NCBI GenBank assembly: GCA_030751555.1
Contig: JASMFX010000048.1
Location: forward strand, 1 to 27,697
Source of the DNA: Candidatus Woesearchaeota archaeon
GTDB lineage: Archaea; Nanoarchaeota; Nanoarchaeia; Woesearchaeales; CALCXY01
Direction: 5' to 3'
DNA length: 27,697 nt
Shown here: piece after piece, positions 8,679 through 23,304 of the stretch
How the letters are laid out: each line of letters opens with the position of its first letter
Numbering within the stretch: position 1 is the stretch's first letter
Program-made: the position numbers and the translations under genes
Notes under the pieces: generated by a model
Database searches by the model: none
The model's input: the letters and a program-made list of their open reading frames with translations, nothing else
Told to the model about the DNA's origin: nothing

Positions 8679-8777
8679 GGTTTTGGCTTAAATTTTCACT
8701 TAGTGTTGTGAAATTATTCCTCTGCTCTCTATTATTCAAGGTTATTGCTTTATCTTCTGCTGTCAGTCAAAATTTAC

Positions 8778-8847
8778 CTAATTTCTCTCCCCCGTACCCT
8801 AGTAAGGGGGAGAGAAATTAGCCAGGATAAGCAGTTCAGGAGCAAAA
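8778..8847. repeat. Palindromic hairpin repeat, copy 2, with flanking block
   Basis: The arm CTAATTTCTCTCCCCC (8778-8793) pairs perfectly with 8806-8821 around G-TAC-CCTA-GTA-A. From 8806 to 8847 it aligns without gaps to 15516-15557 of copy 3, about 34 of 42 bases identical by my count, ending in the same CAGGAGCAAAA. The side hairpins present in copy 3 are not preserved here. Confidence 0.85.
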
Positions 8848-8888: not shown

Positions 8889-8960
8889 CCAACTTTTTGC
8901 TTCCGCAAAAAGTTGGACCAAAACAAATCTGTGGAACCAAAACCCTTGGTTTTGTTCCAC
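8889..8960. repeat. Two perfect or near-perfect hairpins downstream of tRNA-Leu
   Basis: CCAACTTTTTGC (8889-8900) pairs fully with 8905-8916 across a TTCC loop. GTGGAAC-C-AAAAC (8931-8943) pairs with 8949-8960, with one bulged C and a CCTTG loop. Both are followed or led by ACCAAAAC. They begin 26 nt past the 3' end of the tRNA (minus strand) and could be processing or termination structures, or part of the copy 2 repeat. Confidence 0.7.
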
Positions 8961-8985: not shown

Positions 8986-9069
8986 TGTGGGAAGGAGGAT
9001 TCGAACCCCCGTAGGCACTAAGCCAACAGGTCCTAAGCCTGTCCCGTTTGGCCACTCCGGCATCCCCAC
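8986..9069 (-). tRNA. tRNA-Leu (anticodon UAG)
   Basis: The gene is 84 nt with discriminator A. The acceptor arm GTGGGGA pairs with TTCCCAC. The anticodon arm is ACAGG-CTTAGGA-CCTGT, giving anticodon TAG, which reads CUN leucine codons. A long variable arm (type II) and the T arm GGGGG-TTCGAAT-CCTCC support leucine. CCA is not encoded and no intron is seen. TATATATAAA at 9094-9103 is the likely promoter. Confidence 0.95.
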
Positions 9070-11576: not shown

Positions 11577-11584
11577 TTTAAATA
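11577..11584 (+). promoter_or_regulatory. BRE and TATA box of the structured segment
   Basis: CCGAAAGA followed by TTTAAATA is a good BRE/TATA combination. It predicts a transcript from about 11606, inside the left arm of the first stem. No good TATA box lies 26 nt before the next ATG (11770), so this may be the promoter of that gene, leaving a leader of about 160 nt. Confidence 0.55.
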
Positions 11585-11586
11585 TG

Positions 11587-11743
11587 TCAAGATTTACCTC
11601 ACCTATAGGATGAGAGGAAGAGAATCTTCGTACCATTCAAAAATAGGAGGTAAATCTTGAGCATGATCAAGAACCACACACTGGTGTTTAGGAATGTAAG
11701 GCAGAGCCTTACATGTTCCCCCTCTGTGATGGGTGGTTCTTGA
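11587..11743 (+). ncRNA. Candidate structured RNA or 5' leader with alternative stems
   Basis: TCAAGATTTACCTC (11587-11600) is perfectly complementary to 11647-11660; TCAAGAACCAC (11667-11677) is perfectly complementary to 11733-11743. Inside the second, ATGTAAGGC (11694-11702) pairs with GCCTTACAT across an AGA loop; inside the first, GAAGA-GAA-TCTTC forms a small hairpin. TCTTGA (11655-11660) can instead pair with TCAAGA (11667-11672), which would break both long stems. I do not recognise an RNA family. It may be a free RNA, a regulatory leader of the 11770 gene, or a DNA cruciform. Confidence 0.5.
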
Positions 11744-11769
11744 CATCCTAAAAACTCTCGTCTATAAGA

Positions 11770-14868: not shown

Positions 14869-15372
14869 TTAAGCAGCGATATTTCCTCTAATTTTTTCAA
14901 TTACTTTTTCCAAATCTGCCTCTCCAGCTAGTTCATCAATATCCCAACTTAATTGCAGCAAAGTGGCATCTTTGTTGGGAACAAGCATAAGACTTGGACA
15001 CCTCATGATAACAATTGAGGGTATGCCCTCTCCAAATTGGTCTTGATTAGTATCAATGAATAATCTTCTTTGAGGGTCATAATTCCACGCATGCCAATTA
15101 GTTAGTTTTCTAGAACAATCTGGCCTATAAATATCATTTATTATCGGTATCATATCGTAAGTGTAATCTCCCGCTAATTCAACTAAACCTATGATTAATT
15201 TATTTGATCGAGTAGCAGCAGTGCATTGACAAGCAGGATAATCTATCAGCTCATTTTCCAATGTCGCTCGGATCTCTTTAAGTATCGAAAAGTAAGGCAA
15301 AGCCTCCATCTCTTTCTTGGATAAGAAAAGTTCAGAATATTCCCTGATCCCATGGTTGTTTCCCTTGTACAT
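14869..15372 (-). CDS. Paralogue B: possible papain-like (Cys-His-Asp) protein
   Basis: The product has 167 residues from the ATG at 15372. The longer frame to 15411 is disfavoured because ATTTTTAAAT (15394-15403, minus strand) is centred 26 nt before 15372. Conserved with paralogue A: KKEMEALPYF, Cys50 followed by TAATRSN, GLVELAGDY, NWHAWNYDPQRRLFID (His94, Asp107) then TNQDQF, and IPSIVIMRCPS. The segment H-A-W-N ... F-I-D-T-x-x-x-Q-F is like the H-x-W-N ... D-L-T-x-x-Q-F signature found in several cysteine-peptidase-like families. An extra Cys48 is present. No signal peptide. It reads away from the cloverleaf repeat and the DNA glycosylase gene. Confidence 0.6.
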   Translation of the reverse strand: MYKGNNHGIREYSELFLSKKEMEALPYFSILKEIRATLENELIDYPACQCTAATRSNKLIIGLVELAGDYTYDMIPIINDIYRPDCSRKLTNWHAWNYDPQRRLFIDTNQDQFGEGIPSIVIMRCPSLMLVPNKDATLLQLSWDIDELAGEADLEKVIEKIRGNIAA

Positions 15373-15462
15373 AGTTGATAAGAATATAATTTCATTTAAA
15401 AATCTTAGCAAAATAAAGCAAATGAAATAATTCTGCGATTATTTTTGTTACTTGAAACGCAC

Positions 15463-15557
15463 TTTTGCTCCTGGGCACATAAGTGCCTTAATTTTTCTCC
15501 CCCGTACCGAGGTAAGGGGGAGAAAAATTAACCCTGCGAAGCAGGGCAGGAGCAAAA
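15463..15557. repeat. Cloverleaf inverted repeat (copy 3 of the hairpin family)
   Basis: Every base of this 95-nt element fits a four-way junction. Outer stem: TTTTGCTCCTG (15463-15473) with CAGGAGCAAAA (15547-15557). Arm 1: GGCAC-ATAA-GTGCC (15474-15487). Arm 2: TTAATTTTTCTCCCCC (15488-15503) with 15516-15531 around G-TAC-CGAG-GTA-A. Arm 3: CCCTGC-GAA-GCAGGG (15532-15546). All stems are perfect and no base is left over at the junction. It sits between the divergent promoters of paralogue B and the glycosylase gene. Confidence 0.9.
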
Positions 15558-15651: not shown

Positions 15652-16347
15652 ATGATATCCAAAATCTACAAAACACTATTAAAAAGATATGACAAACAAG
15701 GCTGGTGGCCCATAACTCCTCCAGGCCATGTTGAACCTGTCTATGATAAAGGACCTCGAACTGCTAAACAAAAATTAGAAGTATGTTTCGGAGCAATCTT
15801 AACACAAAACACATCCTGGAAGAATGTTGAAAAAGCAATTGTGAATCTGAACAAGCATGACCTCATTGAGATAAATAAAATCCTAAGAATTCCTAAGTCT
15901 CAACTGGCTCAATATATCAAACCCTCTGGTTATTTTAATCAAAAGGCAATCAAGCTAAAATCCTTTTGCCAGTATATTAAAGATAACTATCAAAGCAGCC
16001 TAGAATTATTCTTTGAAAAAACAATTAAAACTTTAAGGCGAGAGTTATTATCCATCCATGGCATTGGTCCTGAGACAGCTGATTCGATTATACTCTACGC
16101 AGCAGCCAAACCCTCTTTTGTTGTTGATACATATACAAAGAGAATCCTTTCAAGGTATGGTTCGATCTCAAAAAAAGCGAGCTATGATGAAATCAAAGAG
16201 TTGTTTGAGTCCCAGTTTGGAAAAAACTCACAAGTATACAATGAGTATCATGCTTTGATTGTTAAATTGGCTAAAACCCACTGTCTTGCTAAATATCCAA
16301 CTTGTAGTAGTTGTCCTTTGACAAAAGGGTGTAAGAAGGATTATTAG
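15652..16347 (+). CDS. FeS HhH-GPD DNA glycosylase (endonuclease III superfamily, MagIII-like)
   Basis: The product has 231 residues. An early FGAILTQNTSWKNVEKAI helix pair matches the Nth fold. The helix-hairpin-helix is LLSIHGIGPETADSIILYA (133-150), followed by SFVVDTYTKRIL with the catalytic Asp159. Four cysteines in C-x6-C-x2-C-x5-C (211, 218, 221, 227) bind the [4Fe-4S] cluster. The lysine that makes Nth a lyase (in G-V-G-x-K-T-A) is Glu141 here, so this is probably a monofunctional glycosylase, as in the MagIII/3-methyladenine branch that also carries G-I-G-x-E-T/S-A-D. The damaged-base substrate is not deducible. The gene is leaderless by promoter spacing. Confidence 0.82.
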   Translation: MISKIYKTLLKRYDKQGWWPITPPGHVEPVYDKGPRTAKQKLEVCFGAILTQNTSWKNVEKAIVNLNKHDLIEINKILRIPKSQLAQYIKPSGYFNQKAIKLKSFCQYIKDNYQSSLELFFEKTIKTLRRELLSIHGIGPETADSIILYAAAKPSFVVDTYTKRILSRYGSISKKASYDEIKELFESQFGKNSQVYNEYHALIVKLAKTHCLAKYPTCSSCPLTKGCKKDY

Positions 16348-16437: not shown

Positions 16438-16481
16438 AATTTCTTCTCTCCCCCTACCTGGGTATGGGGAGAGAAGAAATT
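16438..16481. repeat. Palindromic hairpin repeat, copy 4
   Basis: The arm AATTTCTTCTCTCCCC (16438-16453) pairs perfectly with 16466-16481 around C-TAC-CTGG-GTA-T. The mismatch pair next to TAC...GTA is C/T rather than G/A, and there are four instead of five C/G pairs. Upstream, TCCT-TTAC-AGGA (16411-16422) makes a further small hairpin with a CAGGAG. The element lies between the glycosylase stop and the decarboxylase promoter. Confidence 0.8.
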
Positions 16482-23203: not shown

Positions 23204-23304
23204 CGAGCCTGCGAGGATTTGAACCCCGGTCTGCCGGTCCGAAGCCGGCCGTACTATTTGCCTTAGCAAATAAACCTTTGCTACCCAGGCTATACTACAG
23301 GCCC
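23204..23304 (-). tRNA. tRNA-Arg (anticodon UCG) with a D-loop intron
   Basis: The acceptor GGGCCTG pairs with CAGGCTC (one G-U); discriminator is G. Anticodon arm GCCGG-CTTCGGA-CCGGC gives anticodon TCG, arginine CGN. T arm CGGGG-TTCAAAT-CCTCG is normal. The D arm (GTAT ... GTAC) is interrupted by 27 extra nucleotides; removing them leaves a standard D loop AGCCTGGGTA and a mature tRNA of 74 nt. CCA is not encoded. TATTTAAA at 23330-23337 is a suitable promoter. ArgRS is encoded about 1.7 kb away. Confidence 0.92.
23255..23281 (-). other. 27-nt intron in the D loop of tRNA-Arg
   Basis: The extra 27 nt can be placed in any of about three registers because TAG is repeated at both ends. They contain the hairpin TATTTGC-TAAG-GCAAATA. 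I could not draw a strict bulge-helix-bulge with certainty; a relaxed one is likely. The position between bases 20 and 22 of the D loop is non-canonical. Confidence 0.75.

Follow-up and report, generated by a model that had tools for sequence, protein, structure and literature searches.

A cloverleaf-forming DNA core probably marks a family of short non-autonomous transposons in Woesearchaeota and related archaea

In a stretch of 27,697 nucleotides from Candidatus Woesearchaeota archaeon (contig JASMFX010000048.1, here called the window) the positions 15463–15557 form a four-armed cloverleaf. Probably this cloverleaf is the core shared by a family of non-autonomous DNA transposons (MITEs) that occurs in Woesearchaeota and their phylum-mates. 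A DDE transposase acting in trans would move these elements and generate target duplications of 8–9 bp. As we reconstruct it, the full element would measure 142–174 bp and would begin with an end of ∼23–39 nt, in which the terminal inverted repeat is included, followed by a core of ∼85–110 nt that can fold into a four-way junction and by a mirror-image end.

The 95 nt of the core are described here on the plus strand, the strand being chosen so that the central hairpin starts with its pyrimidine-rich arm. The outer stem of 11 bp is formed by its 5′ arm (15463–15473, TTTTGCTCCTG) and its 3′ arm (15547–15557, CAGGAGCAAAA) and encloses hairpin 1 (15474–15487, 5 bp with the loop ATAA), the central hairpin (15488–15531, 16 bp followed by TAC/GTA beyond one G/A mismatch) and hairpin 2 (15532–15546, 6 bp with the loop GAA). 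All four stems are perfect and the junction contains no unpaired base, exactly as the original prediction had described it. The minimum free energy is −60.2 kcal/mol versus a mean of −26.29 kcal/mol (sd 3.48) for shuffled sequences (z −9.7), and none of 200 dinucleotide shuffles gave an equally stable fold. A detector of perfect four-way junctions assigns a score of 38 to the core and reported a single object, with a score of 22, in 80 other fetched loci comprising 695,519 bases. At this position all Rfam families stay below their gathering scores, by far in the case of the five matches seen under relaxed thresholds, and ARAGORN finds no tRNA here, the only tRNAs that it reports in the window lying at 8986–9069 and 23205–23276. 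The cloverleaf thus matches neither a tRNA model nor a described Rfam family.

Two covariance models were used to follow the family: model R1 of the central hairpin, built from eight rows out of 17 hairpins (nine were left out; in the MAFFT alignment of the 17 some rows were off by one base), and model R2 of the whole cloverleaf, built from six founding rows. Model R1 detects four copies in the window, at 1479–1525, 8776–8822, 15486–15532 and 16438–16481, given here on the plus strand. In the second family copy (1479–1525) the central hairpin is intact and the outer parts are degraded; R2 matches it at 1457–1548 on the minus strand with 40.4 bits. The third copy (8756–8846) has an intact central hairpin (8776–8822) and has retained the 3′ outer arm AGGAGCAAAA with a degraded 5′ arm, and the fourth (16438–16481) consists of the central hairpin alone. 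A perfect 12-bp hairpin (CCAACTTTTTGC/GCAAAAAGTTGG) is present at 8889–8916, between the third copy and the tRNA-Leu gene. A further structured intergenic region with two long hairpins within ATGTCAAGA...TCTTGACAT ends is found at 11584–11746 and is possibly another mini-element.

The core lies between two divergently oriented genes. The left one (14869–15411, minus strand) has no Pfam match and is 34% identical to its counterpart in the locus L006, and the right one (15652–16347, plus strand) codes for an HhH-GPD (endonuclease III-like) glycosylase whose closest relatives are found in records titled Woesearchaeota, the best being the L006 counterpart with 68% identity. In L006 the corresponding divergent gene pair is separated by a gap of 70 bp without a core. 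The core-holding gap of the window measures 171–279 bp depending on the start codons, or 240–279 bp if the glycosylase starts at 15652, close to where the similarity begins. On sequence comparison this difference fits an insertion, the flanks being too diverged for the joint to be readable and the exact empty site lying beyond the reach of L006.

Further copies are present in related genomes. When the element was compared by BLAST to the genomes of L006, L007 and L008, the best E values were 2.3e-18 in G001 and 7.3e-9 in G002, and there was no match below E 0.5 in G003. A strict pattern of the hairpin tip matched G001 alone among 60 genomes and was too narrow; therefore the covariance models were used instead. 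Likewise, the perfect-junction detector recovers just three distinct members across the family loci, because most copies contain a mismatch or a short stem, and the wider copy counts are therefore based on R2. Among 60 relatives of G001, R1 identified four genomes at E ≤ 0.001; it finds 19 distinct sites in G001, which is the nearest relative genome, ten in G038, five in G002 and none in G003. Model R2 matches G001, G002 (five sites), G038, G043 and G044 (nine sites), and a scan of 371 genomes sampled from G001's phylum gave at least 12 with a match at E ≤ 1e-6, among them G158 with seven and G352 with eight sites; the figure of 12 is a lower bound because 11 candidates per genome were scored. 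In total, at least 14 genomes have matches to the cloverleaf model, all of them relatives or phylum-mates of Woesearchaeota, with the label Woesearchaeota itself being certain just for the genomes reached via titled loci. In a mixed control of 46 genomes reached via other loci (bacteria, other archaea and some other DPANN groups) only the already known G044 matched, and 44 of the 45 genomes without a match were new, G343 having been part of the phylum scan. None of 36 genomes from the phylum of the methanogen G430 matched R2, two of these 36 being also in the mixed control. In viral contigs a 16-base exact pattern of the 5′ side matched five times, never followed by the fold, and neither the central-hairpin pattern nor the neighbouring glycosylase had a match. 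The record of L061 is titled as Aminicenantes bacterium, and its genome, G044, was drawn among the relatives of G001; the title may be a mislabel. With respect to genes, 33 of 40 cores do not overlap an open reading frame of at least 120 amino acids, and the neighbouring genes of these 33 are divergent in 13 cases, tandem in 13 and convergent in six, with one case unassigned.

The fold is conserved by paired changes. Already in the six founding rows pairs have changed on both sides in all four stems (4, 3, 7 and 2 pairs), with 25 double-sided cells versus a mean of 7.2 in the shuffles; none of 500 shuffles was as high on four of five measures, and 11 of 500 were on the fifth. For the wider alignment 103 matches of R2 on both strands in 54 sources were reduced to 53 unique places by keeping the better-scoring strand, and these were collapsed at 80% identity to 44 rows. 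In these rows, which were found and aligned by a structure model and are thus biased toward the fold, 88.0% of the cells are Watson–Crick pairs versus a mean of 53.2% and a maximum of 55.4% in 500 shuffles, and 482 double-sided changes are counted versus a maximum of 163. At least two double-sided cells are present at 39 of the 40 pairs (outer stem 10/10, hairpin 1 5/5, central hairpin 18/19, hairpin 2 6/6). The original prediction had held that a set of matches in which each of the four stems shows compensatory changes would support selection on the fold, and both alignments contain such a set. In addition, the same four-stem plan is obtained when many copies are folded independently. On the other side, when wobble pairs are disallowed, no more than 19 of the 53 cores fold as three hairpins that are closed at the extreme ends of the cut-out, and in the core of L155 the side hairpins are weak. 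In most rows the outer stem ends with G, hairpin 1 has the form GT...AC, the central hairpin starts with its pyrimidine-rich arm, and hairpin 2 as well as the outer 3′ arm begin with C. The junction letters are correspondingly conserved among the 53 cores: G of the outer stem in 46, G and T of hairpin 1 in 50 and 43, T of the central hairpin in 46 and C of hairpin 2 in 46. Single mismatches within helices, again with wobble disallowed, number 52 in total with 13 G·T and 12 A·C; in the covariance-model alignments, where a few rows are possibly read on the opposite strand, there is a modest G·T excess of 79:60 (53 rows) and 71:52 (44 rows).

That the family is mobile is supported by the ends of the elements. 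We examined 75 copies (66 and nine added later) for terminal repeats and target duplications, and 12 of them in five genomes (L097, L155, L225–L233 and L295) score at least 23.5, a value found at none of 600 random places; the best random score was 22.5, with this null using the settings of the 66-copy scan, which are slightly narrower than those for the nine added copies. The 12 elements are 142–174 bp long, encode no transposase, have terminal inverted repeats matching at 10–14 of 16 positions and are flanked by mostly perfect 8–9-bp target duplications. L230–L233 from G177 are 143-bp elements with the perfect 9-bp duplications CTGTTGGGA, CGCTAGTGG, GTCCAATAG and GAGTTTCAA. In G158 the duplication is a perfect 9 bp in L227 and L228, has one mismatch in L229, is a perfect 8 bp in L225, and in L226 contains a mismatch and measures 8 or 10 bp. 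The duplications of L155 (G038), L097 (G002) and L295 (G151) are TATCAGCGC, CTAATTTT and GCATTAAT, respectively. L292 (G074) with a score of 22.0 lies below the line, and its ATTGAAAACC end is also found in L225. G158 alone contains two transposon-end types with nearly identical arms of the central hairpin.

The other 63 of the 75 copies do not reach the line, including all four copies of the window and all copies of G001, and the best score of the window copy, 19.5, was equalled by 42 of the 600 random places. Thus, the suggestion that the cloverleaf is a mobile non-autonomous element is supported for the family, given its scattered copies, inverted repeats and duplications in five genomes, and is not supported for the window copy itself. 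Several G001 copies end in TTTTTCGGCGCC/GGCGCCGAAAAA, and a target duplication was looked for and not found. Several copies of G001 (L098, L099, L148 and L149) have the outermost repeats TTTTTCGGCG.../...CGCCGAAAAA in common, with no target duplication found; these repeats are a separate end class. Two others (L100 and L101) have the central hairpin alone and share a longer flank (GGCACTTTGTAATAG...), which suggests a larger repeat.

A candidate for the mobilising enzyme is found in G158. The IS240-type catalytic domain PF13610 was detected in just two of the 14 core-bearing genomes, G158 and G280, and one such gene of G158 (PF13610, E 4e-16) is located within a 938-bp element (L284:1184–2121) which has the ends GATGAAGTCAAGTTAGGTGTC and GGCAAAGTCAAGTTAAGTGTC and the perfect 9-bp duplication AGCCAACAA. 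Six bases inside its ends GTCAAGTTAGGTG / GTCAAGTTAAGTG is found; the motif TCAAGTTAAGTG is equally deep from the end in L284 and in the mini-elements of G177 and G038, and the duplication length is alike, the agreement of the ends being one across genomes only. Elements of the TCAAGTTAAGTG end class would thus be moved by an IS6/IS1-like transposase. The L284 protein scores 59.8 bits against PF13610 (cut-off 27) and is marginally above the cut-off of the IS1/IS1595 zinc-binding domain (28.4 versus 28 bits). However, it is below the NCBIfam cut-offs for IS6 (NF033587, 98.2 of 125 bits) and IS1 (49.4 of 100 bits), and the mini-elements, unlike IS6/IS240 and IS1, have no transposase. Apart from the mini-elements, a search of G177 and G038 for the TCAAGTTAAGTG motif gave weak matches at scattered places, and no autonomous element was recognised; for the G158b ends no additional copy in that genome was recognised as an autonomous element. 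The ends around the other IS240-domain genes (L285–L287) are not above noise. The 3′ end of the transposase gene in L284 contains a perfect 26-bp tandem duplication (1299–1350).

The strongest rival for the covariation is an element that is mobile as well, with a functionless fold whose arms stay paired because replication switches template from one arm to the other and thereby copies changes across. Such a process acts on DNA and would yield Watson–Crick covariation without a wobble bias, as is observed. The near-identical and recent copies L225, L226 and L229, however, have lost pairs without compensation, and these uncorrected mismatches speak against template switching, which in addition would not by itself preserve the four-stem plan and the junction letters in many genomes. 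We therefore regard this explanation as unlikely, albeit less so than those that follow.

Alternatively, transposons could carry a non-coding RNA whose structure contains the four-way junction, and the strong conserved fold, the compensatory changes in all stems and the conserved junction letters would all agree with that. An RNA fold tolerates G·U pairs, and therefore G·T should far exceed A·C on the transcribed strand, which is not what the 13 and 12 single mismatches show; the modest excess in the covariance-model alignments counts somewhat in favour of RNA. As wobble mismatches are not favoured, the mismatch pattern argues for a core that acts as a DNA fold or is subject to a process at the DNA level. 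Moreover, no Rfam family matches and the neighbouring genes occur in all arrangements. The earlier suggestion of an unusual RNA is consequently disfavoured, and we consider it improbable.

Still less probable is a REPIN-like element that a Y1 (IS200/RAYT-type) transposase moves in the form of single-stranded DNA. In the available parts of the REPIN study (Bertels and Rainey 2011; PMC3116915) REPINs are likewise short mobile DNA with a middle that keeps its foldability by compensatory changes, and they differ in their Y1 tyrosine transposases and their single hairpin. The G001-type copies without target duplication and the Y1 transposases in four of the 14 core-bearing genomes would be in line with such an element. 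On the contrary, Y1 enzymes are absent from the other ten, including G001, G002, G038, G044 and G177 (drafts which are possibly incomplete), and 12 copies of the cloverleaf family have DDE-type ends with inverted repeats and 8–9-bp duplications. To our knowledge, Y1 enzymes make no target duplications of this length. A transcription terminator or regulatory site for the neighbouring genes, as strong hairpins in intergenic DNA might indicate, is the least credible reading, as the T-run precedes the stem and the A-run follows it, an order opposite to that of a terminator whichever strand is read, as convergent genes flank just six of the 33 cores, and as the counterpart gap of L006 has no such element.

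Thus, we favour a transposon core whose fold would act as DNA, either as a cruciform or in the single strand. The pairing would be required by the copies that are still spreading, since pairs are lost uncompensated in recent copies but maintained over lineages. A 143-bp duplex has about one persistence length and is hard to bend end to end, so that a compact junction in its middle would place the ends side by side; we therefore hypothesise that the fold may bring both ends of a short and stiff element together for the transposase. The copies of the window would belong to the family by homology of their core, their own ends being presumably lost or unrecognised. Target duplications of MITEs are reported to wane with age (available parts of PMC10969869), which would explain why some copies have no recognisable ends. 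Truncated MITEs that lack their ends occur as well (available parts of PMC10969869 and PMC2229807).

Prokaryotic MITEs comprise ERIC, RUP, Correia/NEMIS, CIR and QMITE, with archaeal cases in Sulfolobus and Haloquadratum, and the available parts of two publications (PMC10969869, PMC2229807) describe them, as our elements are, as ∼100–200 bp long, intergenic and stem–loop forming, bounded by terminal inverted repeats and flanked by target duplications. The MITEs described there are long stem–loops or, in case of CIR, two arms with a linker, whereas in the cloverleaf family four stems meet without a spare base, covary across many genomes and are combined with several end types. The words "cloverleaf" and "cruciform" are absent from the available text of PMC2229807, as are "cruciform" and "hairpin" from that of PMC10969869, and a survey on hairpins and cruciforms from 2026 (PMC13155455) has in its available text a single mention of MITEs and none of Woesearchaeota, Nanoarchaeota or a cloverleaf. 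The original prediction of an undescribed element holds insofar as our searches of the open-licence PMC literature gave no description of a cloverleaf MITE family; its kind, the MITE, is already known. The family would accordingly add mobile elements to those of the archaea.

Hairpin-forming MITEs are common, and the unusual part is a multi-branched fold which is kept by paired changes in four stems. Several end types carry the cloverleaf, which would point to selection on the shape of the interior rather than on its letters. We tentatively suggest, with rather less confidence than for the transposon family as such, that the DNA cloverleaf is selected as a shape and that mobile DNA of this archaeal phylum reuses it as a module. 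Perhaps this module joins the ends of elements whose shortness and stiffness prevent looping; alternatively, as an inbuilt four-way junction, it perhaps attracts junction enzymes of the host. If true, this would be direct evidence of selection on the DNA shape of a transposon interior, while the letters and the terminal repeats vary between genomes. The family also offers a way to test if DDE transposons of very small size depend on a compact fold for the joining of their ends.
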